Assembly (NCBI RefSeq): GCF_000156335.1
Contig: NZ_DS999213.1
Coordinates: 1,306,679-1,370,678 of the forward strand
Source: Roseobacter sp. GAI101
Lineage (GTDB): Bacteria > Pseudomonadota > Alphaproteobacteria > Rhodobacterales > Rhodobacteraceae
Length of the DNA: 64,000 nt
Direction of reading: 5' to 3'
The notes under the pieces are model-generated. The model searched no databases. It was not told where the DNA came from and worked only from the letters and a program-made list of their open reading frames with translations. How positions within the stretch are numbered: the stretch's first letter is position 1; every line of letters starts with the position of its first letter. Below, in pieces: positions 12,046-63,238 of the stretch. The position numbers were made by a program, and so were the translations under genes.

Positions 12046-12076
12046 AATGGTGCGGCTCTGGACCAAGAATAATGGG

Positions 12077-32087: not shown

Positions 32088-35000
32088 CTATGACGGTGTC
32101 ATCAACGCGACAACTTGGCCCGCGCGCAACGCCTGCCCCGGTGCCGCACGCACATCGCTGATGCGTCCGGACGCGGGGGCCAGCACCGCCATTTCCATCT
32201 TCATCGATTCAACAATCGCCACTGTGTCTCCGGCTTTGACAAGATCGCCGGGGGCCACGGTGACCTTCCACAGACTGCCCGGCACGGCGCTTTCGATGCC
32301 GATGAAACCCTCGGGGATATCGTCCGGTGCCGCATCTGCCACCTTTCCGTGATCCGGCGCAAAACTGTCTTGGCCCTGCTCTTTCCACCGCTGCCGCTCG
32401 GCCTCGAATGCGTCCTGCTGGTTGTTCTTGAACCGCGTGATATCCGCAGCCTGTTCGGCAAAGGCGCGCTTGTGATCGGCCCATTTGAATGTCGTCTCTT
32501 CGATCTTCAGCGGGTATTCCCCATGCGGAAAGGCATGCCGCGCTTCGGTCAGTTCTTCGTGGGATACCGGGAAAAACCTGATCTGGTCGAAGAAATCCAG
32601 CAGCCACGGGTTCTTGTGAAATGCAGGCGTGCGCCGCCACGTATTCCAGACCTGCACCGTCCGCCCGACCAACTGATAGCCCCCCGGTCCCTCCATGCCA
32701 TAGACACACATGTAGGCACCGCCGATTCCCACGGCATTTTCAGGTGTCCAGGTGCGCGCGGGATTGTATTTCGTCGTGACCAGACGGTGGCGCGGATCAA
32801 TCGGTGTCGCCACGGGCGCACCCAGATAGACATCCCCCAGCCCCAGGACCAGATAGCTGGCGTCATAGACGATCTTGCGCACGGCAGCTTCGTCCTGCAA
32901 TCCGTTGATCCGGCGTATGAATTCGATATTCGACGGACACCACGGCGCGTCCGGACGGACCAGATCCTGATACTTTCGCATCGCCAGTTCGGCCTGCGGA
33001 TCGCCCCAGGACAGCGGCAGATGCACGATGCGCGACGGCACGGTGATGTCTTCTGCGGGGGGCAAGGTCGCCTCGATCTCGGTCAGGAAGGCCAGCAGTT
33101 TATCCCGCGACAACCGCGTGCTGTCATAGTGGATTTGCAACGACCTGATCCCCGGTGTCAGGTCAATCACCGGCAACTTGGCGTCCCGAACAGCCTGCAT
33201 CAACAAATGCACCCGCAGCCGCAATTCGATGTCCAGCGTCATATCACCGTATTCGACCAACAGATTGTCGTCACCCTGACGGCGGTACACGACCGGAACC
33301 TCTGCCCCGTCCTTGCGCATCATCACCGGGGATCCCGCACCCGCAAGGCTGGGGGCCGTGACCGGGTCGTCTGCCCGCTGCACTGGTTTGAACCGGATGG
33401 TATCGCCGGGACGGAACTGGCCCATTTTCCATCGGTCTTCGGCCGCGACGACAGCAGGGCTGACGAACCCGCCAAGGCTGGGACCGTCCGGCCCCAAAAT
33501 GATCGGCATGTCACCGGTAAAATCGATGGCCCCGACCGCATAGGCGTTGTCATGCAGGTTCGACGGGTGCAATCCAGCCTCTCCGCCATCCGCGCGTGCC
33601 CATTGCGGTGCAGGTCCGATCAAGCGGACGCCGGTACGGTCGGAATTGAAATGCACCTTGTAGTCGGTGGCAAAGAACGCGGCGATGTCGCTGGTCCGAA
33701 AGAAATCCGGCGCACCATGCGGGCCATACAGGACGCTTACCTCCCATGCGGTGGTCAGCGACATGTCTTCCAGCGGCGCAGGGGCGGCACAGGGATGGGA
33801 CGCGATATGGAGCACATCGCCGGTCTTGAGCGTGCCCATGGCGTGACCACCAAACTGCCCTAGGCCGAAACACGCCCGGGAGCCGAGGATTTCCGGCGCA
33901 TCGAACCCGCCAGCAACTGCCAGATAGGCCCGCTGCCCTGCCCCGATGATCCCGCCAATGGCCAGCACTGCCCCGGCAGGCACGTCAATTACCGGCCCGA
34001 CCACTTGGGCACCATCCAGGGCCAGCGTCATCTGCGCTCCGGCCATGGCAATGCGCGTCGCGGACAGAAAGCGCAGGGTCGGACCCGTCATTGTCAGTTC
34101 AAGCGCTGCGGTGTCGGGGGGATTGCCAAGCAGGCGGTTGGCGTTGCGGAAAGAGGCCGCATCCATCGGGCCCGACGGCGGCACACCAACATGCCACAAG
34201 CCAAGCCGACCGGGCAGTTCCTGAAGGCTGGATTGTGCACCGGGGGCGATCACCTCGATACAGGTGGGGGAGAAATCAAAGCGGTTCAACGCCGTCGTCG
34301 TTACCTGCCCCGACGCCAGAATGTCAGAAGCCGCAATCGCCCGCAGATAGCCCAGATTGGTTTCAATCCCCGAAACGCGGGTCTCCTCCAGCGCCTGTTG
34401 CAGCGCGGCGATGGCGGCTGGCCGATCCGCGCCGGTCACGATGATCTTGGCCAGCATCGGATCGTAGAAAGGGGTCACCTCGGTACCGGTTTCGATCCAG
34501 GTGTCGATGCGGGCAGTGTCGGGAAACTGCACATCCGTCAGACGCCCGGCAGAGGGGCGAAAGCCCGCATGCGGCACCTCGGCATAAAGACGCACCTCGA
34601 TCGCGGCCCCCTGCAGCACCAGCGGGACGTCAGGCAGAACCGCTTCTCCGGCGGCCTGCCGGATCATCCATTCGACAAGGTCGATGCCATAGACGGCTTC
34701 GGTGACGGGGTGTTCGACCTGCAATCTTGTGTTCACCTCGAGAAAATAGAAATCCTCGCGCAGGGGGTCATAGATGAATTCGACCGTGCCCGCCGACGCA
34801 TAGGATACGGACGCACAAAGCGCCTTGGCAGCAGCGTGCAACTGCGCGCGCACAGCGTCGGGCAAACCCGGAGCCGGTGTTTCCTCGACCACCTTCTGGT
34901 TGCGGCGCTGCAAGGAACAATCGCGTTCGCCCAAAGCTATCACGCGCCCCGCCCCGTCCCCGAAAACCTGCACTTCGACATGGCGCGCGTCTGCAACGAA

Positions 35001-35600
35001 CCTTTCGATGAATACCCGGGCATCGCCGAAACTGGCGTTGGCCGTCCGCCCGACGGTTTCAAATGCCGCCGTCAATGCCGCCTCGTCAGCGCAAAGCTGC
35101 ATCCCGATGCCGCCCCCGCCTGCAGTGCTTTTCAGCATCACCGGATAGCCGATGCGCGCAGCCTCGGCCACCGCCTGCGCCGCCGTGGCCAGCAAACCCG
35201 ACCCGGGCAACAGCGGCACATCAGCGGCCATCGCCAGATCGCGCGCCGTATGTTTCATGCCAAACGCCAGCAGGTGTTCGACCCGTGGCCCGATGAACGT
35301 GATCCCTGCGTCAGCCAACCGTGCGGCAAAATCGGTATTTTCCGACAGGAAACCATAGCCCGGGTGCACCGCCTGCGCGCCCGTCGCGGTGCAGGCCGCA
35401 ATCACGGCATCTGCGTTCAAATAGCTTTCGGCGGCAGGCGATAGCCCAAGGCGCACGGCCTCGTCCGCAAGCCTTACCGCTGGTGAAAAGCGGTCCGCAT
35501 CCGACCACACGGCAACGGATGCGATACCCAACCGGCGCAACGTTTTGATGACCCGAACCGCGATTTCACCGCGATTGGCCACAAGTACCTTCGTGAACAT
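32088..35600 (-). CDS. Biotin-dependent urea/guanidine carboxylase (most likely guanidine carboxylase)
   Basis: A 1170-residue single-chain biotin enzyme. Biotin carboxylase occupies residues 1 to about 450 (ANRGEIAVR at 8-16, ATP-grasp loop STAGGGGIGM at 158-167). The carboxyltransferase follows (KipA- and KipI-like halves, about 465-1060). The C-terminal carrier domain has ESMKMEM with the biotinylated lysine at about 1134. Bacterial urea carboxylases are about 1200 residues; the separate allophanate hydrolase domain of the yeast urea amidolyase is absent. The enzyme is in an operon headed by a guanidine-I riboswitch and with two DUF1989 proteins, so guanidine rather than urea is the probable substrate. 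The product would be carboxyguanidine. It lies 3 bases after the first DUF1989 gene. Confidence 0.9.
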   Translation of the reverse strand: MFTKVLVANRGEIAVRVIKTLRRLGIASVAVWSDADRFSPAVRLADEAVRLGLSPAAESYLNADAVIAACTATGAQAVHPGYGFLSENTDFAARLADAGITFIGPRVEHLLAFGMKHTARDLAMAADVPLLPGSGLLATAAQAVAEAARIGYPVMLKSTAGGGGIGMQLCADEAALTAAFETVGRTANASFGDARVFIERFVADARHVEVQVFGDGAGRVIALGERDCSLQRRNQKVVEETPAPGLPDAVRAQLHAAAKALCASVSYASAGTVEFIYDPLREDFYFLEVNTRLQVEHPVTEAVYGIDLVEWMIRQAAGEAVLPDVPLVLQGAAIEVRLYAEVPHAGFRPSAGRLTDVQFPDTARIDTWIETGTEVTPFYDPMLAKIIVTGADRPAAIAALQQALEETRVSGIETNLGYLRAIAASDILASGQVTTTALNRFDFSPTCIEVIAPGAQSSLQELPGRLGLWHVGVPPSGPMDAASFRNANRLLGNPPDTAALELTMTGPTLRFLSATRIAMAGAQMTLALDGAQVVGPVIDVPAGAVLAIGGIIGAGQRAYLAVAGGFDAPEILGSRACFGLGQFGGHAMGTLKTGDVLHIASHPCAAPAPLEDMSLTTAWEVSVLYGPHGAPDFFRTSDIAAFFATDYKVHFNSDRTGVRLIGPAPQWARADGGEAGLHPSNLHDNAYAVGAIDFTGDMPIILGPDGPSLGGFVSPAVVAAEDRWKMGQFRPGDTIRFKPVQRADDPVTAPSLAGAGSPVMMRKDGAEVPVVYRRQGDDNLLVEYGDMTLDIELRLRVHLLMQAVRDAKLPVIDLTPGIRSLQIHYDSTRLSRDKLLAFLTEIEATLPPAEDITVPSRIVHLPLSWGDPQAELAMRKYQDLVRPDAPWCPSNIEFIRRINGLQDEAAVRKIVYDASYLVLGLGDVYLGAPVATPIDPRHRLVTTKYNPARTWTPENAVGIGGAYMCVYGMEGPGGYQLVGRTVQVWNTWRRTPAFHKNPWLLDFFDQIRFFPVSHEELTEARHAFPHGEYPLKIEETTFKWADHKRAFAEQAADITRFKNNQQDAFEAERQRWKEQGQDSFAPDHGKVADAAPDDIPEGFIGIESAVPGSLWKVTVAPGDLVKAGDTVAIVESMKMEMAVLAPASGRISDVRAAPGQALRAGQVVALMTPS

Positions 35601-35603
35601 GGC

Positions 35604-36200
35604 TTATCCTTTGATCACAACACGGATCGGCGTCGGGTCGAAACCGTTGCAGGGATTGTTGATTTGCGGACAGTTCGATATCACGCAAAGCACGTCCATT
35701 TCCGCCACCATTTCCACGTGATCGCCCGGCGCGGAAATGCCGTCATCCACGGTCATCGCGCCATTCGGGCTGATCGGCACGTTCATGAAAAAGTTGATGT
35801 TGGCGACGATGTCGCGCTTGGTCATGCCGTGGCGGGACAGTTCCATGATGAAATTCTCGCGGCACGCATGTTGATACAGCGTGTCATGGCCGAACCGGAC
35901 CGTGTTGCTTTCGCATGAACAGCACCCGGCCGACGTATCATGCCGGCCCGAAGTATCGGCCGTCACCGTCAACATCGCGCGGCCTTCCGATGACATCAGC
36001 CGCGTGCCCGTGGTGATATATGCGGCCCCCTGGGCACGCAGCGTGTCCTGACTGGAATAGCGTTCGCCAAAATCGTCGGCCCGATAGAAAATCGTGTCGA
36101 TCGCCTGCTGGCCATAGGTGTCTTCGACGCGGATGGTCTGACCTTTTCTCACGATCCCGGACCATGGTTTTTCGGCGGCAATATCATACACTTGATCCAT
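35604..36200 (-). CDS. Urea carboxylase-associated DUF1989 protein, probable carboxyguanidine deiminase subunit
   Basis: A 198-residue DUF1989 protein of the type called urea carboxylase-associated protein. It contains EDTYGQQAIDTIFY near 26-39 and a cysteine-rich CCSCESNTVRFGHDTLYQHAC block (about 88 onwards). C-S-C-E residues are likely zinc ligands. In the characterised guanidine pathway two such proteins form the deiminase that converts carboxyguanidine to allophanate and ammonia. The ATG at 36200 lies 4 bases after the stop of the second DUF1989 gene; a longer frame upstream overlaps that gene. Which chain corresponds to which published subunit is not decided here. Confidence 0.85.
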   Translation of the reverse strand: MDQVYDIAAEKPWSGIVRKGQTIRVEDTYGQQAIDTIFYRADDFGERYSSQDTLRAQGAAYITTGTRLMSSEGRAMLTVTADTSGRHDTSAGCCSCESNTVRFGHDTLYQHACRENFIMELSRHGMTKRDIVANINFFMNVPISPNGAMTVDDGISAPGDHVEMVAEMDVLCVISNCPQINNPCNGFDPTPIRVVIKG

Positions 36201-36204
36201 GACC

Positions 36205-37020
36205 TTAACCCTTTGCCTTAGCATTGTTTTCAAATCCGCGTTGCGCTTCGGCGGTGGAGGTCCGACACATGTCATCGTCAGCCACCGGCGTGCCCGAAAT
36301 CTTGGTTATCTCGACGGCGTCGGGGACGGATCCGGCACGCGGGTCCAGCGGATGCGGGCAGTTGGACAGGGCGACCAGCAGGTCGATTTCGGCGCGCAGT
36401 TCGATCCAGTCCCCTTGCGAGACCATGGAGCCGCGCCATTCAAACCGGCCATCGGACTGCACCCGGACCGGGGCAAACAGGGTAAACATCGGCGGGATAT
36501 CACGCCGGTCCAACCCCAGCTTGGCCGCGGCCAGCACCATGTTGTCGTGGGTGTTGCGCATCCGGGGATCGTTGTATTTCTCGACCGTGGCGGGCGTCGA
36601 CCCGCCTGTCAGCGCATCATGCGCCCCAGAGCTGTCTTCGACAATCGACAGCATCACGCGGCCCATGTCCGAAAAGATCACCCGCCCTTTCGCAAGGTCG
36701 GTTGTCCATTGCAGCTTGATGGTATCGGGCAGGTTCATCCGCTCGGTCGGGTCGGCGGCGGACCAGGCGGCCAACGACACCGATGACCCCGCCCCTTGCG
36801 GGGCAAGGCGGATGATGTCGCCCTCGGTCACGGCGAGGGTCGTGTACCAGCCCCCCGGCACAGTCCTGGACGACAGAACCGACGCAACGTCGATTTCCGG
36901 CGCAGGGCGCGGGCTGGCAACGGGCATTGAGCCCGGTGAATGGTCAAGCCCCATGCGTTGATGTTCAAGATAGCGCTGACGGTCGGCGTTGATCTGTTCG
37001 GGGGTGCGGTGGACGTGCAT
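36205..37020 (-). CDS. Urea carboxylase-associated DUF1989 protein, second subunit
   Basis: A 271-residue DUF1989 protein, the larger partner of the 198-residue paralog. The N-terminus (TPEQINADRQRYLEHQ) is typical of the larger subunit family. It also has FSDMGRVMLSIVEDSSGAHD and HDNMVLAAAKLGLDRRDIPP segments. The cysteine-rich block of its paralog is not present (VEDSSGAHDALTGGST instead), so this chain may lack the metal site. It sits between the ABC ATPase (one base after) and its paralog. Together they should act on the carboxylase product. Confidence 0.84.
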   Translation of the reverse strand: MHVHRTPEQINADRQRYLEHQRMGLDHSPGSMPVASPRPAPEIDVASVLSSRTVPGGWYTTLAVTEGDIIRLAPQGAGSSVSLAAWSAADPTERMNLPDTIKLQWTTDLAKGRVIFSDMGRVMLSIVEDSSGAHDALTGGSTPATVEKYNDPRMRNTHDNMVLAAAKLGLDRRDIPPMFTLFAPVRVQSDGRFEWRGSMVSQGDWIELRAEIDLLVALSNCPHPLDPRAGSVPDAVEITKISGTPVADDDMCRTSTAEAQRGFENNAKAKG

Positions 37021-37021
37021 C

Positions 37022-37852
37022 TCAGGTCTCCGGTGGTTGATCGGGTCGTCCCGATGTCACGGCTTGTACGGTCGGGTCGTCCCAACCAAGGGCGTATTCG
37101 GTATTGAACAGGGTGCGGGCTCCGGCGACGCGGGGCGGCCAGATGTCGATGTCATTGGTGATCGAGGCCCCGTAGCGGTCGGCCTCTTCGGGGCGGTTGC
37201 GTTTGCGACCCAAGGCGACGACACGGGTCCCCAGGGTGAACGCCTCGCGCAGGTCATGCGTAACCATCACGACTGTCATGGGCCGTTCATCCCACAGCCG
37301 TTTCATCAGATGGTGAATGTCCGTCCGGATGCCGGGGTCCAGCGCGCCAAACGGTTCGTCCAGCAGCAGCACCCGTGGTTTCATCATCAACGCCTGCGCC
37401 AGGGCAAGCCGTTGCTGCATCCCGCCGGACAGTTGCGCGGGGTATTTATCTTCTGATCCGGCAAGGCCGACATCGGCGATCATCTGCCTTGCGGCCTCAT
37501 TCAGATGTCGCCGCGCCGCGCCAAAGCTGCGGCCCACGACGCGCGCCGATTGCAATTCCGGACCCAACATGACGTTGCCCAGAACCGTCAGATGCGGAAA
37601 CACCGAATAGCGTTGGTACACCACACCGCGGTCCGGCCCGGGTTCATCAGGCAAGGCTGCGCCATCCAGCATGATGGTGCCACGGGTTGCGCGTTCTTGC
37701 CCCAGCAACAGGCGCAGCAATGTCGTTTTCCCGCAACCTGACGGCCCGACAAGCGCCACGAAGGATCGCGGGGCGATATCAAGGCTCAGGTTTTCGATGA
37801 CGATCTGGTCGCCGTATTCCTTCCAGACATTGCGCAACGTGAGGGCCGTCAT
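37022..37852 (-). CDS. ABC transporter ATP-binding protein of the guanidine operon
   Basis: A 276-residue NitT/TauT-type ATPase. Walker A GPSGCGKTT is near 41-49, signature LSGGMQQRLALA near 145, and Walker B VLLLDEPFGALD near 165. The ATG at 37852 overlaps the permease stop by 4 bases. It powers the importer formed with the permease and binding protein encoded upstream. The importer is of the class often labelled 'putative urea ABC transporter' next to urea carboxylase genes. Here the riboswitch argues for guanidine or a related guanidinium ligand. Confidence 0.9.
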   Translation of the reverse strand: MTALTLRNVWKEYGDQIVIENLSLDIAPRSFVALVGPSGCGKTTLLRLLLGQERATRGTIMLDGAALPDEPGPDRGVVYQRYSVFPHLTVLGNVMLGPELQSARVVGRSFGAARRHLNEAARQMIADVGLAGSEDKYPAQLSGGMQQRLALAQALMMKPRVLLLDEPFGALDPGIRTDIHHLMKRLWDERPMTVVMVTHDLREAFTLGTRVVALGRKRNRPEEADRYGASITNDIDIWPPRVAGARTLFNTEYALGWDDPTVQAVTSGRPDQPPET

Positions 37853-38667
37853 CTGCCCGCCTCCAGCTGCGACCAGGGGAACAGCCAGCGGCGGAAGCGA
37901 TCGATGCCGAAATCGGCACTGGCCGCCAGAAAGGTGATCCATGCGACATAGGGAAAGATGATGTCCATCGACAGATAGCGCCGTACCAGAAAGATGCGGT
38001 AGCCCAGACCGCTGTCCGCGGAAATCGCCTCGGCGGCGATAAGAAACAGGAAGGCGGGCCCCAGTTGCAGGCGCAGACTGCCCAAGAGACGCGGCAGGGC
38101 CTGGGGCAAGACGATGCGCAGGGCGATCAGCCAGCTTGAGGCCGACAGGGTCTCGGCCTTGACGATCTGTTCGCGGGGCAAGGCCAGCACGGTTTGCGCA
38201 AGATCACGGATCATGATCGGGGCGACGCCGATTACGATCAACGCAATCTTGGACGTTTCCCCCAATCCCATCGAAATGAAAAGGATCGGCAGCAGCGCCA
38301 AGGGCGGCACCATGGACACAAAGCTGACAAAGGGGGCCAGCAGCGCGCGAAAGAACGGCAGGATGCCGATGCAGACGCCGATCACCAACGCCAGTGCCGT
38401 CGATATGCCAAGGCCCGCGGCAAGCCGCTTCAGGCTGGACCAGGTATCGGTCCACAGCAGATAATCACCGCTGCGCCGGTCGGGGGTGAAAGCCATCAGA
38501 TCGACGGCATCCGCAATGCTGGTGAGCGCCGGCAACAGCTTGTCATTTGGGTTTTCAGCCAACCGCAGGGACGACCCCAGCAGATACGCCAGTATCAGTA
38601 CCAGGAACGGCGCGAATTTCAAGGCTGTCGCCGCCACCGGCGACAGCTGTTGATTGATCAGGCGCAT
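37849..38667 (-). CDS. ABC transporter permease of the guanidine operon
   Basis: A 272-residue inner-membrane permease with about six hydrophobic segments and a coupling loop LSASSWLIALRIVLPQALPRL, of the NitT/TauT class. It overlaps the ATPase start by 4 bases and lies 15 bases after the binding-protein stop, so the three subunits are made together. Its job is uptake of the ligand captured by the neighbouring binding protein. Confidence 0.9.
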   Translation of the reverse strand: MRLINQQLSPVAATALKFAPFLVLILAYLLGSSLRLAENPNDKLLPALTSIADAVDLMAFTPDRRSGDYLLWTDTWSSLKRLAAGLGISTALALVIGVCIGILPFFRALLAPFVSFVSMVPPLALLPILFISMGLGETSKIALIVIGVAPIMIRDLAQTVLALPREQIVKAETLSASSWLIALRIVLPQALPRLLGSLRLQLGPAFLFLIAAEAISADSGLGYRIFLVRRYLSMDIIFPYVAWITFLAASADFGIDRFRRWLFPWSQLEAGR

Positions 38668-38682
38668 CGGTCCCGTTCCTGC

Positions 38683-39753
38683 TTACAGCGCGCCGTCGGC
38701 GGCCATTTGCATGAACGTCGTGTCGAACCTGAATTTGACATTGGCGGTATCGCCCAGAATGGTGCCGTCGGGCAGTTCAATGCCGATGGCGTCTTCGGAC
38801 GTGGCACCCGGTGTCAAAAGCCCTTTGTCGAACAGGAACGCGCGGACCAAATTCATCGTGCCCGCCAGATCAGACGACGCGGTAAAGGCAACGGCCTCGG
38901 CAGGGTCGGCAAAAAGTTTCGTCGCGGCCATCTGTGCTTCGAAGCCCGCCTGATCGGTGCCCGACGCAGCCCCCATGGCGGCGCGTGCGGCAGCGCCTTC
39001 GGGCGTGTCGGATGTCATCAGCGTCATCGTCTCGTACCAGATGCCGGCCAACGCCTGACCGAACTTGGGGTTATCTGACAGCACGTCGGTGTTGGCGACC
39101 ATCAGATCGATGATCTCGCCTTCGATCTGCGCGCTGTCGAAAACCTTGACCGCGCCGGGCAGCGTTTCGATTTCCGACACCATGGGGTTCCATGTCACCA
39201 TCGCAGTCACATCATCGGTCTGGAACGCCCCCACCATATCGGGGTCGGCGGTGTTGATGACCTTCACGTCCTGCTCGGACATCCCCACGCTGTCCAACGC
39301 GCGCGACAGCAGATAATGCGAGACCGAGAATTCCACCAGGTTCACATCGCGCCCGGCAATATCGGCCAGCGCGTTTCCGTCCTTGATGAACACCGCGTCA
39401 TTCCCATCGGAAAAATCACCTACGATGACGGCGGTCGTATCCACGCCGCCCGCTGCCGGGATCGACAGGCCGTCCATGTTGGTCAGCGTGACCGCATCAT
39501 AGCCGCCCGCCGTGTACTGGTTGATGGATTCGACATAATCGTTGAATTGCGTGACTTCGATCGAGATGCCGTATTTATCGGCCCATTTGTCGACGATGCC
39601 CGCGTCCGCAGCGTGCCCCCATGGCATCCAGCCGACATAGATCGACCATGCGACTTTGAAATCCGTCTTTTCCTGCGCGACGGCGGTCTGCCCAAAGCCC
39701 AGCACACCCAAGGCGGCCAAGGCGGCAAGCGTCATTCTGCGATTGGTTTTCAT
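38683..39753 (-). CDS. ABC transporter substrate-binding protein of the guanidine operon
   Basis: A 356-residue NMT1/TauA-fold binding protein with a signal peptide (1 to about 26, ending AVA-QE). It belongs to the family annotated as putative urea ABC transporter binding protein found beside urea carboxylase. The mature start VAWSIYVGWMPWGHAADAG carries the aromatic residues usual in the family. An AAGGGA site precedes the ATG. It is the first gene after the guanidine-I riboswitch and terminator, so its expression should rise when guanidine is present. Confidence 0.9.
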   Translation of the reverse strand: MKTNRRMTLAALAALGVLGFGQTAVAQEKTDFKVAWSIYVGWMPWGHAADAGIVDKWADKYGISIEVTQFNDYVESINQYTAGGYDAVTLTNMDGLSIPAAGGVDTTAVIVGDFSDGNDAVFIKDGNALADIAGRDVNLVEFSVSHYLLSRALDSVGMSEQDVKVINTADPDMVGAFQTDDVTAMVTWNPMVSEIETLPGAVKVFDSAQIEGEIIDLMVANTDVLSDNPKFGQALAGIWYETMTLMTSDTPEGAAARAAMGAASGTDQAGFEAQMAATKLFADPAEAVAFTASSDLAGTMNLVRAFLFDKGLLTPGATSEDAIGIELPDGTILGDTANVKFRFDTTFMQMAADGAL

Positions 39754-39773
39754 ATCAGTCCCTTTTCAGTTTC

Positions 39774-39810
39774 AAAAAGGGATTGGATACAGATCATCGC
39801 CGCCAATCCC
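39774..39810 (-). terminator. Intrinsic terminator (expression platform of the guanidine-I riboswitch)
   Basis: On the minus strand GGGATTGG (39810-39803) pairs with CCAATCCC (39786-39779), followed by five U residues. It lies between the aptamer and the binding-protein ATG. In guanidine-I switches ligand binding prevents formation of such a terminator and turns genes on. Confidence 0.88.
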
Positions 39811-39819
39811 TTGGTCTTG

Positions 39820-39930
39820 CGAGGTCTCCCGGGCTTTTGTCCCGCCGTGCATCTGACGGATTTTTCTGTCCCGCCAGCTTCGGCTCTCGGACCAGACACG
39901 TGTTGAACGCCGGAACCCTAGCCGAAAACT
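39820..39930 (-). ncRNA. Guanidine-I (ykkC) riboswitch
   Basis: Read on the minus strand, the conserved blocks of the ykkC class appear in the right order: CTAGGGTTCCG (39921-39911), GGTCCGAGAG (about 39883-39874), and ACGGCGGGACAAAAGCCCGG then GAGACC (ending about 39823). An intrinsic terminator follows 13 bases later. This aptamer senses free guanidinium and activates detoxification or degradation genes. Its presence is the main reason for reading the downstream carboxylase as a guanidine enzyme. Confidence 0.96.
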
Positions 39931-40121
39931 CAATTTGATGATTGTTGGACAGGGGCCACTGCGGCAAGCATATCGAACGCTTTGGCATTGGCATCCGCAT
40001 GGCTGCATTATTTTCAGGCAACCCGCGCGTCTGGCGATGGAAATTTAGGCACGAATGCGGTCTGCCCTCCGCTGCGCTTTGGCACCGAAGGGCAGATTAC
40101 AACGTCAAAGGTGTTAGGCCA

Positions 40122-50257: not shown

Positions 50258-51109
50258 ATGAACATAGCAGCACCCCTCCCCCCGACCGAAAGCCCCGCCG
50301 AGGCCCCGCGCACAGGTCGCGCCCGCAACGCGCTTGAGCTTCAGAATGCCTCTGTCGTCTTCGGCAGCGGCGACATGGCTGTGACGGCCCTCGCACCGAC
50401 CAACCTCAAACTGCCCGACGGTGACTTTCTGGCGCTTGTCGGGCCGTCCGGTTGTGGCAAATCCACGATCCTGCGGCTGGTCAGCAACCTGATCAAACCG
50501 TCGGAAGGTGTCGTGCTGGTCGGCGGCCGCGAAGCTGCCGCCAAACAGTTGCGCATTGGCATGGCATTCCAGAACCCCACGATGCTGCCCTGGCTGACAA
50601 TCGAACAGAACGTGATGATGCCGCTCAAGATCGTGCCACCCTTCAAGGCGCGCTTTCGGGCGGAACGCAAAGGCGAATTCCGCGATCGGGTGCACCAGCT
50701 GCTTGCGCAGGTCGGGCTGACCGATTTTGCCGGGCATTACCCGTGGCAACTGTCGGGCGGCATGTTGCAACGGTCAAACCTGTGCCGCGCGCTGATCCAT
50801 GAGCCCGACCTGCTGTTGCTGGACGAACCCTTTGGTGCGCTTGACCAGTTCACCCGCGAAGAGCTGTGGCAGACCTTGCAGGACCTCTACCTGGATCGCA
50901 AACCCACGGTGCTGTTGGTGACCCACGATCTGCGCGAAGCCGGATTTCTGGCGAACCGTATCTGCGTGATGAGCGCGCGCCCCGGCCGGATCATATCGGA
51001 CGAGACGGTGAACATTCCACAGCCCCGCGACATCGACATGATCTACAGCCCGGAATTCGTCGAAATGACCCAAGGCCTGCGCGAATTGATCGCACAGGTC
51101 CGCAAATAG
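50258..51109 (+). CDS. NitT/TauT-type ABC transporter ATP-binding protein
   Basis: A 283-residue ATPase with an extended N-terminus. Walker A GPSGCGKST is near 64-72, signature LSGGMLQRSNLCRAL near 165-179 and Walker B LLLLDEPFGALD near 187-198. This subclass imports nitrate, taurine, sulfonates and, in the ThiXYZ and RutR-linked groups, pyrimidines. It is the first gene of a plus-strand operon continuing with permease, binding protein, NTF2-like protein and NodB-fold hydrolase. A 12-base gap separates it from the permease gene. Confidence 0.92.
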   Translation: MNIAAPLPPTESPAEAPRTGRARNALELQNASVVFGSGDMAVTALAPTNLKLPDGDFLALVGPSGCGKSTILRLVSNLIKPSEGVVLVGGREAAAKQLRIGMAFQNPTMLPWLTIEQNVMMPLKIVPPFKARFRAERKGEFRDRVHQLLAQVGLTDFAGHYPWQLSGGMLQRSNLCRALIHEPDLLLLDEPFGALDQFTREELWQTLQDLYLDRKPTVLLVTHDLREAGFLANRICVMSARPGRIISDETVNIPQPRDIDMIYSPEFVEMTQGLRELIAQVRK

Positions 51110-51121
51110 AAGGCCCCCGCC

Positions 51122-51895
51122 ATGACCGAAAAAAACCGCATACGGATGATGTCCTTTTCGCTGCTCTTCGGCTTTTTCCTGATGTGGGAAGTGCTGTGCG
51201 TGCTGCTGAACGTGTCGGACCTGGTCCTGCCGCGCCCGTCTGAAATTCTGGTGACCCTGTGGGTCAAGTTTCCGATCCTTCTGCCCCATATCATCCAGAC
51301 GCTCTATTCGACCCTGACGGGCTTTGTTCTCGGGGTCGGGATCGGTGTTGCCTTGGGCGTGATCGTCGGCACATCCAAGGTCGCCTATGCGGTTGCCTAT
51401 CCGCTGCTGGTCGGTTTTTCATCCATCCCGAAGGTGGCCGTGGTGCCGATCTTTGTTCTGTGGTTCGGGTCGGGAACGACGCCGGCGATCCTGACGGCGA
51501 TGGTGATCTGCGTGTTCCCGATCGTCGTGAATATCGCCACCGGCCTTGCCGCGACGGAACCCGATCTTGAGGACGTCCTCAAGACCCTGGGCGCGTCAAA
51601 ATCCGAAATCCTCTGGAATGTCGGGTTGCCGCGCACCATGCCCTATTTCTTTGCCGCCCTCAAAGTCGCCATTACCCTGTCCTTCGTCGGCGCGGTGCTA
51701 TCGGAAACCGTGGCGTCCAACCGCGGCATCGGCAACGTCATGATGACAGCATCCTCGAACTTCCAGGTCTCGCTTGTCTTTGCGGGCCTGATCATCCTCG
51801 CCCTGCTGGGCGTCGCACTTTACGCCCTGTTTTCCGTGCTTGAACGTCGGGTCACCGGCTGGGCGACGCGCGGCAATGACCTCTCCATCACCTGA
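51122..51895 (+). CDS. NitT/TauT-type ABC transporter permease
   Basis: A 257-residue permease with about six hydrophobic segments and a coupling loop DVLKTLGASKSEILWNVGLP (about 155-174) typical of this class. It begins in a hydrophilic arm (TEKNRIRMM). It lies between the ATPase and binding-protein genes with short gaps, so all three are probably translated from one transcript. Confidence 0.92.
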   Translation: MTEKNRIRMMSFSLLFGFFLMWEVLCVLLNVSDLVLPRPSEILVTLWVKFPILLPHIIQTLYSTLTGFVLGVGIGVALGVIVGTSKVAYAVAYPLLVGFSSIPKVAVVPIFVLWFGSGTTPAILTAMVICVFPIVVNIATGLAATEPDLEDVLKTLGASKSEILWNVGLPRTMPYFFAALKVAITLSFVGAVLSETVASNRGIGNVMMTASSNFQVSLVFAGLIILALLGVALYALFSVLERRVTGWATRGNDLSIT

Positions 51896-51928
51896 CCCCC
51901 CATTCACCTCAACACAAGGACCGCTTTG

Positions 51929-52954
51929 ATGAAGCATACACTTTTGAGTGCGACATTCGCATTGATCGCCGGGATTACTCCCGCCTTCGCCGAGATGACC
52001 GATATCCGTTTCACACTTGGCTGGAAGACCCAAGGCAGCGATGCCCCCTTCCTGATGGCGCTTAGCCGCGGTTATTTCGAAGACGAAGGCCTGAACGTCA
52101 CCATCGACCAGGGCGAAGGATCGGCAGCGACCGTGACGCGGATCATGGGCGGTGCCTATGACGCGGGGTTTGGCGACATCAACGCCATCATCCAAAACGC
52201 CGCCGCCCGTCCGGGCGAAGCGCCGGTGATGGTTTACCAGCTTTGGAACCGTCCTCCCTTTGCGATCGTGACGCCGAAAAGCGCCGGCATTGAAACGCCA
52301 GCCGACTTCGAAGGCAAACGGCTGGGCGGGGCGCAGGGCACGCCCACCACACGGCTTTTCCCGGTCTTCGCCAAGCTGAACGGCGTCGACATCGACAAGG
52401 TCGCCCAGGAAAACATGGCACCGAACCTGCAAGAACCGATGATGATCCGGGGCGACATTGATGGCGCGTTCGTCTTTACAATCACAAGCTGGTTCAACCT
52501 GATCGCCAACCGTCAGGACCCTGCGGCCGATTTCAACTGGTTCCAGTTCGAAGACTACGGGATGGACCTTTATTCAAACGGCATGATGGTCTCGCGGAAG
52601 ATGCTGGCGGAAAACCCCGAGGCGGTCAGCGGTCTGGTCCGTGCGGTGAACCGCGCAACGCTGGAAATCGCACAGGATCAGGACATTGCGGTCGAGGCGA
52701 TCATGGCCTTCGACAACCTCGTCGATCCGGAACTTGAGCGCGCGCGCCTGGAATTCGCGTTGACCAACCTGATGAACGCGCCCGAGACTGCGGAAATCGG
52801 CATGGGTGATCTGGTGGACGAACGGCTGACACGCTCCATCGCGATCGTTGCCGAAGGGTACGGGCTTGAGCGTCTGCCAGAAGCCTCTGAAATCTTCGAC
52901 CGGTCCTTCCTGCCACCGGCCGATACACGTAGCTTTGTCGTCAGTATCGACTGA
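51929..52954 (+). CDS. ABC transporter substrate-binding protein (NMT1/ThiY-like)
   Basis: A 341-residue binding protein of the NMT1/ThiY fold, with a signal peptide (1-22, ending AFA). The mature start FTLGWKTQGSDAPFLMALSRG resembles proteins that bind pyrimidines or other N-heterocycles, as in ThiY. AAGGA lies 8 bases before the ATG at 51929; a TTG directly upstream is not needed. A strong intrinsic terminator follows 11 bases after its stop, so much of the transcript may end there, raising binding protein and transporter above the two enzymes behind it. Confidence 0.88.
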   Translation: MKHTLLSATFALIAGITPAFAEMTDIRFTLGWKTQGSDAPFLMALSRGYFEDEGLNVTIDQGEGSAATVTRIMGGAYDAGFGDINAIIQNAAARPGEAPVMVYQLWNRPPFAIVTPKSAGIETPADFEGKRLGGAQGTPTTRLFPVFAKLNGVDIDKVAQENMAPNLQEPMMIRGDIDGAFVFTITSWFNLIANRQDPAADFNWFQFEDYGMDLYSNGMMVSRKMLAENPEAVSGLVRAVNRATLEIAQDQDIAVEAIMAFDNLVDPELERARLEFALTNLMNAPETAEIGMGDLVDERLTRSIAIVAEGYGLERLPEASEIFDRSFLPPADTRSFVVSID

Positions 52955-52964
52955 AACTGACAGA

Positions 52965-53003
52965 CCGCGCGTCCGCCCCTGTTGCGGGCGCGCGGTTTAT
53001 TTG
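52965..53003 (+). terminator. Intrinsic terminator after the binding-protein gene
   Basis: CCGCGCG and CGCGCGG enclose an inner CCGC/GCGG stem, followed by TTTATTT. It lies in the middle of an operon, 46 bases before the NTF2-like ATG, so it may be a partial terminator. Confidence 0.75.
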
Positions 53004-53048
53004 CATTGAAACCTGCCCCTTGAACCGTTGACGACGAAAGTGCCCGCC

Positions 53049-53474
53049 ATGGACCAGAAAACCGACCCCCTGATTGCAGCGAAAGCCATCGTCGAGGCCT
53101 ATCTTGAACGCTCGATGGTGCCCGACCCCGAAGGGGCCTCAGCCTATGTCAGCGATGATTTCACGTTGACGTTCACCGGCGGACGGAAATTCACCCGCCC
53201 CGATCAAAGCGCGGGCTTCAACGCGAAACGCTATGCATGGGTGAAAAAACGGTTCCTGCGGACCGATGCGGCGCTTGATCCCGAAACGGGCGATGTGCAC
53301 GTTTACAACACCGGATATCTTTACGGCGAATGGAAAGACGGCACCGCCTTTGAAACCAACCGCTATATGGATAAATTCGTCGTGCGCGACGACAAGATCA
53401 TCGGTACGGATGTCTGGAATGACAGTGCCGAAATCCTGCTGCACAAGGCGGGACTGGCCGAAGCGGAGCTTTAG
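53049..53474 (+). CDS. NTF2-like (SnoaL/ketosteroid isomerase fold) protein
   Basis: A 141-residue protein of the NTF2-like alpha+beta barrel family. It starts in a helix (IAAKAIVEAYLERSMVPDPE), followed by DFTLTFTGGRKF and an antiparallel sheet ending KIIGTDVWNDSAEILLH. Such proteins act as small-molecule enzymes or binding partners, so function cannot be read from fold. The ATG at 53049 is preferred over an upstream TTG. The stop is 3 bases before the NodB-fold gene, so the two may act on one compound. Similar small proteins occur next to ring-opening hydrolases in other bacteria, but I have no direct parallel to name. Confidence 0.75.
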   Translation: MDQKTDPLIAAKAIVEAYLERSMVPDPEGASAYVSDDFTLTFTGGRKFTRPDQSAGFNAKRYAWVKKRFLRTDAALDPETGDVHVYNTGYLYGEWKDGTAFETNRYMDKFVVRDDKIIGTDVWNDSAEILLHKAGLAEAEL

Positions 53475-53477
53475 ATC

Positions 53478-54362
53478 ATGATCAAGGACCACGGGCGTTA
53501 CACATATCGCGCCATCACGGACCGCCCGGATTACACCTGGCCCAACGGCAAGCGCCTTGCGGTCTACATCGGGCTGAACCTTGAACATTTCGCCTTTGGC
53601 GAAGGGTTGGGGGCGGAACTGGCCCCCGGTGGCCCGCAGCCGGATGTGTTGAACTACGCCTGGCGCGATTATGGCAACCGCGTGGGCGCATGGCGGATGC
53701 GCGACATGTTCGATGCGCTGGACCTGCCGGTCAGCGTGATCGCCAATTCGGCAATGTATGATTATGCCCCCGATCTGATGGCGGCCTTTCGCGCCCGCAA
53801 TGACGAAATCGTCGGGCATGGACGGACCAATTCGGAACGCCAAAGCGTGCTTTCGACCAAGGACGAAGCGGCGCTGATCGCCGAGGCCACACAGGTCTTG
53901 CACAAGGCCGAAGGGGTCGCCCCGCAAGGCTGGCTGTCGCCCTGGATCGCGGAAAGCATGGACACCCCGGACCTGCTGGCACGGGCGGGGTATGGCTATA
54001 CCTTGAACTGGTGCATGGATGATCAACCGGTCTGGATGGAAACCTCGGGCGGTCGGCTGCTGTCAGTGCCTTATGCGCAAGAGGTCAACGACATTCCGTC
54101 CATCGTCGCGCGCAAGGAAGGGGCGGCTGATTTCGCGGATATGATCATCGATAATTTCGACGAGATGCTGGAACAGTCAGTAGACCAGCCCCTGGTCATG
54201 GGGATCGCATTGCACCCCTATCTGGTCGGCCAGCCCTACCGCCTGCGCCATCTGCGCCGGGCGCTCACGCACATCGCCGCACAGCGCGACGCCATCTGGC
54301 TGACACGCGCAGGCGACATCCACAGCTATTGCCGCGATCAGATACCTGATTTGATCCCCTAA
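53478..54362 (+). CDS. Polysaccharide deacetylase-fold (NodB/PuuE-like) hydrolase
   Basis: A 294-residue NodB-fold protein. Strand and helix pattern fits residues 25-285: LAVYIGLNLEHFAFGEG, VSVIANSAMYDYAPDLMAAF, EIVGHGRTNSERQ, GWLSPWIAESM and VMGIALHPYLVGQPYRL. The TFDDG-type motif of chitin and peptidoglycan deacetylases is replaced by GLNLEHF and the H-x3-H metal motif by GHGRTNS. This resembles PuuE, a metal-independent allantoinase, rather than sugar deacetylases. No signal peptide is visible, so a cytoplasmic, N-heterocycle ring-opening role is plausible. It follows the NTF2-like gene by 3 bases and is the last gene of the operon. Confidence 0.8.
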   Translation: MIKDHGRYTYRAITDRPDYTWPNGKRLAVYIGLNLEHFAFGEGLGAELAPGGPQPDVLNYAWRDYGNRVGAWRMRDMFDALDLPVSVIANSAMYDYAPDLMAAFRARNDEIVGHGRTNSERQSVLSTKDEAALIAEATQVLHKAEGVAPQGWLSPWIAESMDTPDLLARAGYGYTLNWCMDDQPVWMETSGGRLLSVPYAQEVNDIPSIVARKEGAADFADMIIDNFDEMLEQSVDQPLVMGIALHPYLVGQPYRLRHLRRALTHIAAQRDAIWLTRAGDIHSYCRDQIPDLIP

Positions 54363-54399: not shown

Positions 54400-56031
54400 T
54401 TAGGCCACCTGTCTGCGCGCCGGAGGTGTCGGCGCTGCGGCCAGCAACGTCTTGGTATATTCGTTCTGCGGGTTCGCCATGACATCGCGCGCATGGCCTT
54501 GTTCGACAATCTCGCCGTCTTTCATCACGATCACATGGTCGCACAGCAGGCGAACCACATGCAGATCGTGGCTGACAAACAGATAAGTCATACCCAGCTT
54601 GGCGCGCAGATCGACCAACAGGTTCAATACGACCGCCTGAATGGACACATCCAGCGCCGCAGTCGGTTCATCCAGGATCAGGAATTTCGGTTCAAGGGCA
54701 ACGGCGCGGGCAACCCCCACGCGGGCCTTCTGCCCCCCCGACAGCTGATGCGGGAACCTGTCCAGCAGGGGCAAAGGCAGACCGACCAGCACGGCCAGTT
54801 CCTCAACCCGCGCGCCCAGCTTGGCCCCGCGCAGCCCGCCCAGGCGACGCAGCGGTTCGACGATGGTCTGGCGCGCGGTGTGGCGCGGGTTCAGGCTGTC
54901 CGTGGCATCCTGAAACACCATCTGGATCTGGGCACGGCGTGGATTGCGGGCAAAACCCTTGGCCGGGATCGCAGCGATGTTTTCGCCCTCGAACAAGATA
55001 TCGCCGCTCGTCGCATCCATCAACCGCACCAGAATCTCCGAGGTCGTGGATTTCCCGCAACCGCTTTCCCCCACCAGCCCGACGCTTTGTCCCTGCTTGA
55101 TGGTGAATGAAATGCCTTTCACCGCTTGGACCGGGCCGGATTTGCCGCGATAGGTCTTGGTCAGATTGCGCACCTCGACCAACGGCGTATCCAGCACCTG
55201 ATGGGGCAATTCGGCCTTGCGGTCCGCAGGGGGCAGCAGGCTACGGATGCTTTCGCCGATGCGCGGCGTGGCATCCACCAGTTTGCGGGTATACCCGTGC
55301 TGGGGATCGCTGAAAATCTGTACGGGATCGCCCTGTTCGACGATCAGTCCGTCTTTCATCACCATGATCCGGTCGCAATATTGTGCGGCCAGCCCAAGGT
55401 CATGGGTGATCAACAGACTGCTCATCCCGCGTTCGCGGATCAGGTCGCGCACCAGGTCCATCACCGCCTTTTGCGTCGTGATGTCCAGCCCCGTGGTTGG
55501 TTCGTCCGCGATCAGCAGGCGCGGGTCGCAGGCCAGTGCGATGGCGCAGACGATGCGTTGGCACATGCCGCCGGACAATTCGAAGGGATAGGCGTCATAG
55601 CGTGCTTCGGCGTCGTTGATCCGCACGGCCCTAAGGGCGGCAATCGCCTTGGCACGGGCATCCTGACGGGTGGCGCGGGCATGTTCACGCAGCACGTCTT
55701 CGATCTGGTGACCGACCTTGCGGATCGGGTTCAGGGCCGCACGCGGGTTCTGGAATATCATCGAGATTTCGCGCCCGCGGATATCGCGCATGTCCCGTTC
55801 GGCGGCGCGGCGCAGGTCGATGCCCGAATACGTCGCCTTGCCTGCCTTTATCCGGCCCCCTGCATCCAGGATGCGCATCAGCGCATAGGACGTCACCGAT
55901 TTACCAGACCCGCTTTCACCCACGATCCCGAGGATTTCGCCCTTTTCCAGATCAAAGCTGATCCCGCGCACGGCATCCACAGCACCCCGACGGGTTTGAA
56001 AGGACACGGCAAGGTCTTTGACACTCAGCAT
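54400..56031 (-). CDS. Dipeptide-type ABC transporter ATP-binding protein, fused DppD-DppF
   Basis: A 543-residue protein with two ABC ATPase domains (Walker A GESGSGKS near 38 and GESGCGKS near 318; signatures LSGGMCQR and LSGGQKAR). It powers the two permeases encoded upstream, from which it is separated by 3 bases. It ends 37 bases from the convergent NodB-fold gene. It is a close paralog of the ATPase at 15697-17475, showing that the window holds two related dipeptide-type importers. Confidence 0.92.
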   Translation of the reverse strand: MLSVKDLAVSFQTRRGAVDAVRGISFDLEKGEILGIVGESGSGKSVTSYALMRILDAGGRIKAGKATYSGIDLRRAAERDMRDIRGREISMIFQNPRAALNPIRKVGHQIEDVLREHARATRQDARAKAIAALRAVRINDAEARYDAYPFELSGGMCQRIVCAIALACDPRLLIADEPTTGLDITTQKAVMDLVRDLIRERGMSSLLITHDLGLAAQYCDRIMVMKDGLIVEQGDPVQIFSDPQHGYTRKLVDATPRIGESIRSLLPPADRKAELPHQVLDTPLVEVRNLTKTYRGKSGPVQAVKGISFTIKQGQSVGLVGESGCGKSTTSEILVRLMDATSGDILFEGENIAAIPAKGFARNPRRAQIQMVFQDATDSLNPRHTARQTIVEPLRRLGGLRGAKLGARVEELAVLVGLPLPLLDRFPHQLSGGQKARVGVARAVALEPKFLILDEPTAALDVSIQAVVLNLLVDLRAKLGMTYLFVSHDLHVVRLLCDHVIVMKDGEIVEQGHARDVMANPQNEYTKTLLAAAPTPPARRQVA

Positions 56032-56034
56032 GGG

Positions 56035-59556: not shown

Positions 59557-59654
59557 CGAAAGCCCTCTCGCTGGTGGTGCGCCGATTGGATTCGGCCTTT
59601 GGCAAAGACTGCGCTGAATCAGCGATCACTTCTAATGCTATAAAATCAGTAATG

Positions 59655-59673
59655 CGGTGCATTAAATGCATCG
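59655..59673. promoter_or_regulatory. Candidate LysR box upstream of the ABC operon
   Basis: TGCA-TTAAA-TGCA (59658-59670) is a T-N11-A inverted repeat, flanked by CG one base outside each arm (CG-N-TGCA-N5-TGCA-N-CG). The same pattern recurs before the LysR gene at 63239-63257. Two copies beside the two operons of this block point to a shared regulator. Confidence 0.6.
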
Positions 59674-61353: not shown

Positions 61354-63150
61354 CTAGGCCGTCAATGACGCGATATACTGCCGCCAGTCGCCGATATCCG
61401 TGATATCCTGCGCATCTGTGGTGGCGACCGTTTCACACAGGAACCCTTGCACCTGCGACCCGTCATCCAACGCGATCGTGCCAAGCCCGAGGGGGGCGGG
61501 AATGCCACCCAGAAAGCTGCCGACATGGGCAAGCGGCACATCCCATAGCTCAAGCGCGATCGGCGCGCCTGAACCGGCGGTGCCGCGCACCAGACCGGGC
61601 CGTGCGGGCGGCCCACCGGCCAAGACATAGAACCGGTACGCATCTGTGGTTCGCGCCTTTTTCACAAACACCGCGTTCCGGTCGGTCAGTTGGTGGTTCA
61701 ACGGCAAGCCCGCCATATGCGCCCCGCAAACCGCCAGCCGCAGCGTCGTGGTTTCCCCTGCGGGCAGCGCAGGCGGCGCGGTATAGGCCCAGTCGGTCGC
61801 GCCAAGGCTGCGTTGGCCTGCCGCTTCAAGGCTTTGGGCCATAACGGCGATTTCTGCATCCTTTCCGGCAGCCGCCAGCAAGGTGACGCTGCCCGGACGC
61901 CCGTCGGACCGCGCAGGCACCGGTACGGCAATGCCGCACATGTCCAGCAGGTTAACGAAGTTGGTGTATGTCCCGAAATTCGAGTTCGGCGTCACCGGAT
62001 CGGCCTCAAGCTCGGCCACGGTGTGGAACGTCGGGATCGTCGGCACGCAAAGCATGTCAACGCCTGCCAGCGACGGCTCGGCCGCGCGGGCCAGTTCCTT
62101 GAGGCGGTAGATGCCGCGAAATGCATCTGCCGCCGACAGGTCTTCGGCCTTGCAGATGATCTGGCGGGTCACGGGATGGATGGCATCCGGATCGCGCTTC
62201 AGCAGGTCTTCGATCACAGTGTAGCGTTCGGCCACCCACGCCCCTTCATAAAGCATATGCGCCACGGCATAGAGTGGTTTAAAATCGATCTCCCGTATCG
62301 TGGCCCCTTCGGCCCGCAGCAGATCGACGGCGGCATAAAAGGATGCCGATTGCACCGCGTCTCCCATGAATTCGATGGTGTCGGGGCTGGGTATACCTAT
62401 CACAGGCGGTGTCCCCATGGCGGTCAGATCAGGTGCCGATATGGGACGTGCAAAAGCGTCTGCAGGATCATAGGCGCAACAAACCTGATAGGCAGCATAG
62501 GCGTCGCTGACCGTCAGAGCAAAAATAGATATCGTCTCGATCGAGCGGCAGGCAGGCACCACGCCGCTTGCCGACAGCGCGCCAAGCGTGGGTTTCAGCC
62601 CGACGATATTGTTCAACGCCGCCGGAACGCGGCCCGAACCGGCCGTATCCGTGCCCAGCGACAGCGGCACGATGCCATGCCCGACAGCCACACCCGACCC
62701 GCCAGAGGACCCGCCCGGCACGATTTCGGGATCGACAGAGTTCAACGGCGCACCATAAGGCGTTCGCACCCCGACAAGGCCGGTCGCGAACTGGTCCAGA
62801 TTGGTCTTGCCGATCAAAATCGCCCCCGCCGCGCGCAACTGCGCCACCACGAAGGCGTCGGTTTCGGGGGCATAAGCATAGGCAGGACAGGCCGCCGTCG
62901 TCTCGTAGCCTGCGACATCAATGTTGTCCTTGACCACAAAGGGGATGCCCCAAAGCGGTTTGGCAGTGTCGAAATCGCCCAAGGTGGCAACATCCGCCAA
63001 CACATCCTGGTGTGCACGCAATGCGATAAAGATGTTCGGATCACCGACCGCGGAGATCCGGTCAAACACCTGCGCGACCACGTCCCTGGGGCTGACACCC
63101 GCAGCATAGGCCGCATGAATATCCGGGATCGTCATCCTGAGGTCGGTCAT
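61354..63150 (-). CDS. atzF: Allophanate hydrolase
   Basis: A 598-residue amidase-signature enzyme. The catalytic lysine is in VVKDNIDVAG (Lys74), the cis-serine in GGSSGGSG (Ser148) and the nucleophile in GTDTAGSGRVP (Ser172). The long C-terminal domain (about 445-598) is typical of AtzF and of the allophanate hydrolase part of urea amidolyase. It splits allophanate into two ammonia and two carbon dioxide. The ATG at 63150 has GAAGGAC upstream; an ATG 33 bases earlier is less likely. It is divergent from the LysR gene. It could also serve the guanidine operon at 32-39 kb, which lacks its own allophanate hydrolase. Confidence 0.95.
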   Translation of the reverse strand: MTDLRMTIPDIHAAYAAGVSPRDVVAQVFDRISAVGDPNIFIALRAHQDVLADVATLGDFDTAKPLWGIPFVVKDNIDVAGYETTAACPAYAYAPETDAFVVAQLRAAGAILIGKTNLDQFATGLVGVRTPYGAPLNSVDPEIVPGGSSGGSGVAVGHGIVPLSLGTDTAGSGRVPAALNNIVGLKPTLGALSASGVVPACRSIETISIFALTVSDAYAAYQVCCAYDPADAFARPISAPDLTAMGTPPVIGIPSPDTIEFMGDAVQSASFYAAVDLLRAEGATIREIDFKPLYAVAHMLYEGAWVAERYTVIEDLLKRDPDAIHPVTRQIICKAEDLSAADAFRGIYRLKELARAAEPSLAGVDMLCVPTIPTFHTVAELEADPVTPNSNFGTYTNFVNLLDMCGIAVPVPARSDGRPGSVTLLAAAGKDAEIAVMAQSLEAAGQRSLGATDWAYTAPPALPAGETTTLRLAVCGAHMAGLPLNHQLTDRNAVFVKKARTTDAYRFYVLAGGPPARPGLVRGTAGSGAPIALELWDVPLAHVGSFLGGIPAPLGLGTIALDDGSQVQGFLCETVATTDAQDITDIGDWRQYIASLTA

Positions 63151-63238
63151 GTCTTTGGGTCCTTCATTCGTTAAATTATTCACCTATCCGTTGTGTTTGG
63201 TTGCGCCCTCTGACGCAAATGCTAAGAATTCACAAAAG

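Follow-up and report, generated by a model that had tools for sequence, protein, structure and literature searches.

Roseobacter sp. GAI101 carries, on the minus strand of a 64,000-nucleotide (nt) stretch of contig NZ_DS999213.1 (hereafter the window), an operon with two classes of guanidine riboswitch. A guanidine-I (ykkC) aptamer stands in the leader, followed by genes for an ATP-binding cassette (ABC) importer, two DUF1989 proteins (UAAP1 and UAAP2) and a biotin-dependent carboxylase. The second riboswitch, of the guanidine-II (mini-ykkC) class, overlaps the last codons of the importer ATPase gene (Table 1). An earlier note, made from the sequence alone, had recognised a ykkC-class aptamer upstream of the importer, the two DUF1989 proteins and the carboxylase. 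The Rfam model now matches this aptamer over its full length, and the gene order is confirmed on the same strand. The guanidine-II element had been overlooked, as had the gene for allophanate hydrolase in the same window. Each riboswitch class has a single match in the genome, RF00442 in the operon leader and RF01068 within the operon. Such genome-wide statements cover the 4.52-Mb assembly, which is 96.5% complete.

Table 1. Features of the operon and the gene for the last enzyme of the pathway (window positions)
Feature	Position	Strand	Evidence and remarks
Guanidine-I (ykkC) riboswitch aptamer	39824..39932	-	Rfam RF00442, 81.3 bits, cut-off 63, E 6.4e-13, positions 1-107 of 107
Guanidine-I expression platform, predicted	39774..39810	-	Sequence, fold and comparison of 48 leaders; putative function
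ABC substrate-binding protein	38683..39753	-	TIGR03427 'putative urea ABC transporter substrate-binding protein', 519.5 bits, cut-off 333.9
ABC permease	37849..38667	-	BPD_transp_1
ABC ATPase	37022..37852	-	276 aa from conserved start; last 22 codons overlap the guanidine-II riboswitch; longest open reading frame starts at 37942
Guanidine-II (mini-ykkC) riboswitch	37041..37088	-	RF01068, 38.3 bits, cut-off 32
UAAP1 (DUF1989), probable carboxyguanidine deiminase subunit	36205..37020	-	TIGR03425, 243.9 bits, cut-off 205.95
UAAP2 (DUF1989), probable carboxyguanidine deiminase subunit	35604..36275	-	TIGR03424, 319 bits, cut-off 284.7
Biotin-dependent carboxylase, probably guanidine carboxylase	32088..35600	-	TIGR02712 'urea carboxylase', 1778.3 bits, cut-off 1303.85
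Allophanate hydrolase (AtzF), last enzyme of the pathway	61354..63183	-	TIGR02713, 755.5 bits, cut-off 511.05

The binding protein, UAAP1, UAAP2 and the carboxylase all exceed NCBIfam cut-offs, while the permease and the ATPase match general families only. As the earlier note had anticipated, homology alone yields urea names: TIGR03427, TIGR03425, TIGR03424 and TIGR02712 are all urea-labelled families, and the binding protein does carry the 'putative urea' label ascribed to it. By sequence, the structures with a solved fold that resemble this protein are taurine- and sulfonate-binding proteins only; its predicted ligand is probably guanidinium. Both DUF1989 subunit types expected of carboxyguanidine deiminase, whose subunits we take UAAP1 and UAAP2 to be, are found in the operon above their cut-offs. 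The coordinates of UAAP2 are those of the longest open reading frame, and its true start may be later. The TIGR02712-type carboxylase is present above cut-off as a single copy in the genome, and so is allophanate hydrolase, which is encoded about 21 kb from the operon.

Further information about the substrate was obtained from the carboxyltransferase active site, whose alignment the earlier note had suggested. Asp693 of the carboxylase aligns with the Asn at position 737 of chain 3va7_A, from the carboxylase of yeast urea amidolyase. We take this Asn to be residue 1330, a number reached by arithmetic from a comparison of the alignments to 3va7 and to 5i8i, and to be the site at which Asp marks guanidine carboxylases and Asn marks urea carboxylases. 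This Asp/Asn rule is stated without a residue number in a passage of PMC12186494 (here and below, this paper and PMC12508155 are cited from passages of their text). Among the 93 records described in the next section, Asp precedes the FTGD motif in 86 and Asn in none, the motif being unmatched in the other seven. The genome also has a separate urease (975 bits, cut-off 680). The reading as guanidine that the earlier note had proposed stands because of Asp693, the Asp in 86 of the 93 records, the urease, the single carboxylase and the allophanate hydrolase. It is further supported by the two riboswitch classes and by the guanidine carboxylase/carboxyguanidine pathway, which has already been described (PMC12508155, PMC12186494). 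The protein families and the published work thus support a role of the operon in guanidine uptake and assimilation, with substrates predicted on that basis.

The guanidine-II element within the ATPase gene

The guanidine-II element folds into two hairpins with ACGA loops, P1 (37087-37081/37076-37070) and P2 (37054-37050/37045-37041). Both hairpins lie within the ATPase coding sequence, which extends to 37022; UAAP1 begins at 37020. The element ends 20 nt before the UAAP1 start; the ATPase stop codon comes about 16 nt past hairpin 2, and UAAP1 begins 1 nt past it. Guanidine-II does not occupy here an untranslated region before the regulated gene, a location that is a usual trait of the class and not a defining one. 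A chance match is ruled out by the score over the cut-off, the single match in the genome and the conserved position. Our model R1 gives the element 46.8 bits, but the window sequence was among the 30 sequences from which that model was built. A single stretch of RNA apparently serves as protein code and, as predicted, as guanidine sensor.

The distribution of the arrangement was followed in two surveys. In the first, 390 genomes of the order were drawn from a larger group and searched with stricter filters, under which weak matches may be lost. Of these, 92 have class II and 57 have class I, with 73 and 48, respectively, over cut-off. Both classes lie within 3 kb of each other in four genomes, that of the window included, according to lists compared by eye, and all four show an overlap between the cores of class II and the reading frame of the ATPase. 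One of these genomes, L008, is outside the counts of the second survey. That survey comprises 93 records, namely the window and 92 loci. A scan of bacterial and archaeal species genomes, based on a UAAP1 alignment and using two peptide patterns from four Rhodobacterales sequences, gave 52 loci. The other 40 are 11-kb loci of a phylum set, in which a TIGR03425 search of 398 genomes gave 42 over cut-off (the 40 used, besides G000 and G024). L168 is counted once, and L152, which automatic scoring placed as an embedded element ahead of the carboxylase, is left out of the class II placement counts.

UAAP1 is preceded by class II cores in 55 of the 93 records, window included. Both hairpins are in the ATPase frame in 23 records (hereafter embedded copies), the ATPase stop falls between the hairpins in 24, both hairpins are outside the frame in seven, and one record has no adjacent ATPase. 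Judged by title or class code, all 55 are alphaproteobacterial save L077, a metagenome-assembled genome titled Exiguobacterium profundum, which looks mislabelled since it groups with Rhodobacteraceae. Class I is matched in full in 53 of the 55; L188 has none, and L165 has only a piece at the end of its stretch. Class II precedes the carboxylase in 22 distinct loci and is intergenic in all of them; the Paraburkholderia record L119 has it before the carboxylase. No counted core pair precedes UAAP1 or the carboxylase in 15 of the 93 records: L088 and L120 (cut or partial), the alphaproteobacterial L112 (ATPase tail retained, hairpins lost), L153, L156, L158, L159, L161, L175, L176, L178, L181, L183, L184 (weak model match, 29.8 bits) and L189. 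Among the 28 phylum-set genomes outside the class of the window, class II stands before the carboxylase in 21 and in neither place in six, one genome being left out. Four records (L154, L155, L157 and L160) have two guanidine-I aptamers per gene cluster, each before a binding-protein gene.

A quick midpoint-rooted tree was built from the ATPase body and UAAP1 (55 rows including L112; L165 and L190 sit on long branches and their placement is unsure). The positions of the stop codon relative to the hairpins require five changes on this tree. The embedded state appears in three separate places, in Rhodobacterales-type rows, in the rows labelled f10 and in L190.

Selection on the class II hairpins acts on the RNA and not on the peptide. 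All 23 embedded copies have hairpin 1 in the same reading phase. For hairpin 2 the phase is 0 in six of them, 1 in 13 and 2 in four, its same RNA core being translated into different peptides (mostly GRPD, GTTR/GTAR and (R/Q)DD(L/P)). Across the 22 distinct embedded copies, standard pairs occupy 91.7% of pair cells compared with 84.9% in shuffles. Cells changed on both sides number 19 compared with 5.8, and the covariation score is 0.257 compared with 0.147, with none of 500 shuffles as high in either measure. Kinship alone can lift covariation above such shuffles; as a control, shifting the pairing partners by 1-3 columns lowers every measure. The paired change of CGG..CCG to CAG..CTG keeps the stem and alters two residues.

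Codon usage in the stem gives the same picture at the level of single positions. The stem codon at alignment column 257 is TGG, CGG or CAG in 16 of the 23 embedded ATPases, and its identities at positions 1, 2 and 3 are 0.68, 0.60 and 1.00, against 0.82, 0.89 and 0.56 in the gene body. The two Asp codons that follow are GAC in 32 of 32 cases; in the gene body GAC makes up 112 of 179 Asp codons, and in six Asp columns there that show no variation it accounts for 6 to 14 of 16. Past the WPP/WPT motif, the ATPase tail has 7 residues in the five Agrobacterium-type proteins. It has 31 to 45 residues in 21 of the 23 embedded ATPases, the motif having been wrongly located in L115 and L116.

Proposed regulation and its alternatives

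We propose, with a probability of roughly 0.8, that this is a guanidine operon with two sensors, in which class I raises the importer and class II gates the enzymes. The basis of this proposal is observed here: the anatomy of the operon, the family membership of its proteins, the conservation of the arrangement, the coding overlap and the selection at RNA level. Guanidine-I in the leader would raise expression of the binding protein, permease and ATPase, acting in the ON direction. Guanidine-II in the last ATPase codons would respond to its ligand by gating translation of UAAP1, UAAP2 and the carboxylase. The enzymes would then convert guanidine to carboxyguanidine and this to allophanate, which AtzF, encoded about 21 kb away, would split. 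We infer the ligand response, the ON direction, the gating of translation and the compounds on which importer and carboxylase act; class II has been described as a translational ON switch (PMC12186494, PMC12508155). Since the ATPase frame runs through the class II hairpins, ribosomes translating the ATPase must open the sensor at each pass. With only 1 nt between the ATPase stop codon and UAAP1, a ribosome that completes the ATPase has already opened the sensor and is positioned at the following start.

Several results speak against this proposal. The class II region of the window folds overall no better than chance (z -1.25; 20 of 200 shuffles as good), and in its lowest-energy ligand-free fold the two hairpins pair with each other. 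Nor does the class I leader fold better than chance overall (z -1.27). Enforcing P1 and P2 in 53 sequences gave no consistent opening of the ribosome site (mean unpaired 0.38 vs 0.38, in a model that leaves out kissing loops and with a poor choice of ribosome site in several rows). Two of the pairing measures are less clear-cut than those given above: pairs changed on both sides number 6 compared with 3.4 in shuffles (11 of 500), and further pair types 13 compared with 10.8 (48 of 500). Plain termination-reinitiation could express UAAP1 regardless of the switch, because the ATPase stop is 1 nt before the UAAP1 start. The placement of class II before UAAP1 is not universal, since six of the 12 phylum-set genomes of the same class (L175, L176, L178, L181, L183 and L189) have no class II pair, the other six having it before UAAP1. 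Finally, the 24 records with the stop between the hairpins form a single clade, and the 52-locus scan favours close relatives because the four sequences that supplied its patterns are all Rhodobacterales with class II.

Separately, simple masking of the ribosome site by class II was considered and is unsupported by the folding of the 53 sequences.

The alternative that survives best concerns guanidine-I, which in this clade could control translation through competition between strands and not transcription through a terminator; we rate it just short of even odds, so that for this clade the two modes are about as likely as each other. The predicted platform of the window has a terminator-like 8-bp stem, GGGATTGG/CCAATCCC (39810-39803 with 39786-39779), with a 16-nt loop, followed by T5. 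The consensus terminator scan, which permits only 3-8-nt loops, missed this stem. Alternatively, CCCTTTT can pair with AAAAGGG at the ribosome-binding site, just past the platform (~39760). For comparison, 53 leader records were tried and 48 scored, picked by a looser form of the CCAAGGGATTGGC motif and including many close relatives. The downstream terminator claimed in the earlier note is there as a stem-loop with T5, but its identity as a terminator is uncertain because only 25 of the 48 leaders have a run of T4 or longer. Strand competition is also favoured by the CCAAGGGATTGGC block, almost invariant across the 48 leaders, and by the block after it, for which in 33 of the 48 both CCAAGGGATTGGC and the ribosome site are possible pairing partners, with 3 nt or more shared between the two pairings. 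On the other side are the T5 after the 8-bp stem in the window itself, the 15 leaders in which competition was not found, the close relationship of many of the 48, and the fact that transcription is the usual level of guanidine-I action (PMC12186494).

With regard to class II, its position within the ATPase reading frame leads us to a two-input reading, which we offer tentatively and with the odds leaning against it. Guanidine-II would be a translated riboswitch that reads both guanidine and the rate of ATPase completion, coupling enzyme synthesis to importer synthesis on one RNA. The arrangement would be old in alphaproteobacteria, with the coding frame drifting over a fixed RNA.

A further alternative, which we consider less likely than not, is that class II does not free a ribosome site and instead acts at the ATPase-UAAP1 junction, where it would change termination-reinitiation, the progress of ribosomes or Rho-dependent polarity. 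The tight junction of the window suits this idea, with the UAAP1 start 1 nt past a stop codon that itself follows hairpin 2 by about 16 nt. So do the position of the ATPase end in the 23 embedded records, from -19 to +23 nt relative to the UAAP1 start by an alignment estimate, and the folding, which predicts no simple ribosome-site switch. However, class II riboswitches are described as translational ON switches (PMC12186494, PMC12508155), and of the seven records whose hairpins both lie outside the frame, six keep the element similarly spaced before UAAP1 (L165 unmeasured).

Much less probable is that the embedded element is a relic or a coding coincidence, its hairpins mirroring a conserved C-terminal peptide of the ATPase. 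Hairpin 1 does keep one phase in 23 of 23 copies, with a recurring DDP/DDL or DRDGP peptide, and the relative L112 has a similar ATPase tail without the hairpins. However, hairpin 2 is found in three reading phases with its RNA core unchanged, paired stem changes alter two residues, and only the third position is invariant in one stem codon. Moreover, both hairpins are kept where the stop precedes hairpin 2 (24 relatives) or hairpin 1 (7 relatives). Least credible of all is a urea carboxylase operon whose riboswitches are incidental or sense a urea-related compound: the NCBIfam names (urea carboxylase, urea amidolyase associated proteins, putative urea binding protein) favour it, but it is opposed by the occurrence of two unrelated aptamer classes for guanidine in a single operon, each without another match in the genome, Asp in place of Asn at the aligned carboxylase position (rule in PMC12186494), a urease, and a published guanidine pathway.

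Neighbouring loci and comparison with known systems

In the window, a second same-strand cluster (54400-63183) holds the allophanate hydrolase next to an amidohydrolase that scores best, though under the cut-offs, with TRZ/ATZ-type models; an oligopeptide-type ABC transporter belongs to the cluster too. Beside it, at 50258-54362, are genes for a probable ABC importer (identified by eye) and a distant relative of the allantoinase PuuE (122.6 bits, cut-off 424.6). A third DUF1989 protein is encoded away from the operon (genome contig C9:2146824-2147363), and a cobalamin riboswitch lies at 11872-12082 on the minus strand of the window (121.4 bits).

Among the 30 best class II loci of the order, the next gene is PACE/BTP-like by motif in 12 (L005, L007, L009, L010, L012, L014, L015, L021, L024, L027, L029 and L031), and a thirteenth, L023, was recognised by eye. 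PF05232 was matched by all three proteins scanned (L024, L029 and L031), and NF033664 was also passed by L029 and L031. This suggests, from sequence, that some PACE efflux proteins may export guanidinium compounds. Neither PACE nor chlorhexidine is mentioned in PMC7736828 or, an author name aside, in the passages of PMC12186494, and no wider literature search was made. In another locus (L013:863-1483, minus strand), class II precedes a gene for an isochorismatase-fold hydrolase weakly like biuret amidohydrolase (58.5 bits, cut-off 370).

The guanidine-II elements before SMR and PACE exporters in this order have the same two-hairpin ACGR core as the one described here, but the genes that they regulate are exporters. 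No frame upstream of class II at these exporter loci matched the proteins of the operon, other overlapping frames there having been listed only mechanically.

The pathway, the annotation error and operons with both riboswitch classes are already known; an operon with two classes is therefore ruled out as a novelty (PMC12508155, PMC12186494). In Vreelandella boliviensis, both classes bind guanidine (dissociation constants 44 and 93 µM) and the operon proteins rise on guanidine (PMC12508155). Its gca operon has the same components as the one studied here: a guanidine-I leader, an ABC importer, CgdA/B, guanidine carboxylase and an internal guanidine-II. It also contains atzF, which is apart from the operon here (PMC12508155). 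The genes mgdH and mgdL were not noticed here, and no search was aimed at either. In Raoultella, Erwinia and Klebsiella, too, the operons open with class I and the importer, and class II comes later; there, class I governs the deiminase genes along with the importer, and the carboxylase and allophanate hydrolase are under class II control (PMC12186494).

The literature matches listed (titles, abstract starts and passages) include no report of guanidine-II within an upstream coding sequence; they leave out most subscription papers, so that absence from print is not established. Riboswitches are usually seen as untranslated RNA, and here guanidine-II is conserved inside an open reading frame in several alphaproteobacterial groups; searches limited to intergenic regions would miss such embedded elements. 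The natural series with the stop codon after, between or before the hairpins offers a direct test of a folded sensor on RNA that ribosomes traverse, and of why bacteria place two guanidine sensors in one operon. In summary, class II precedes the carboxylase in the published operons as described in those passages, and its placement before a DUF1989 gene differs here. Unlike in the gca operon of Vreelandella boliviensis, guanidine-II precedes UAAP1 and lies within the ATPase coding sequence (PMC12508155).

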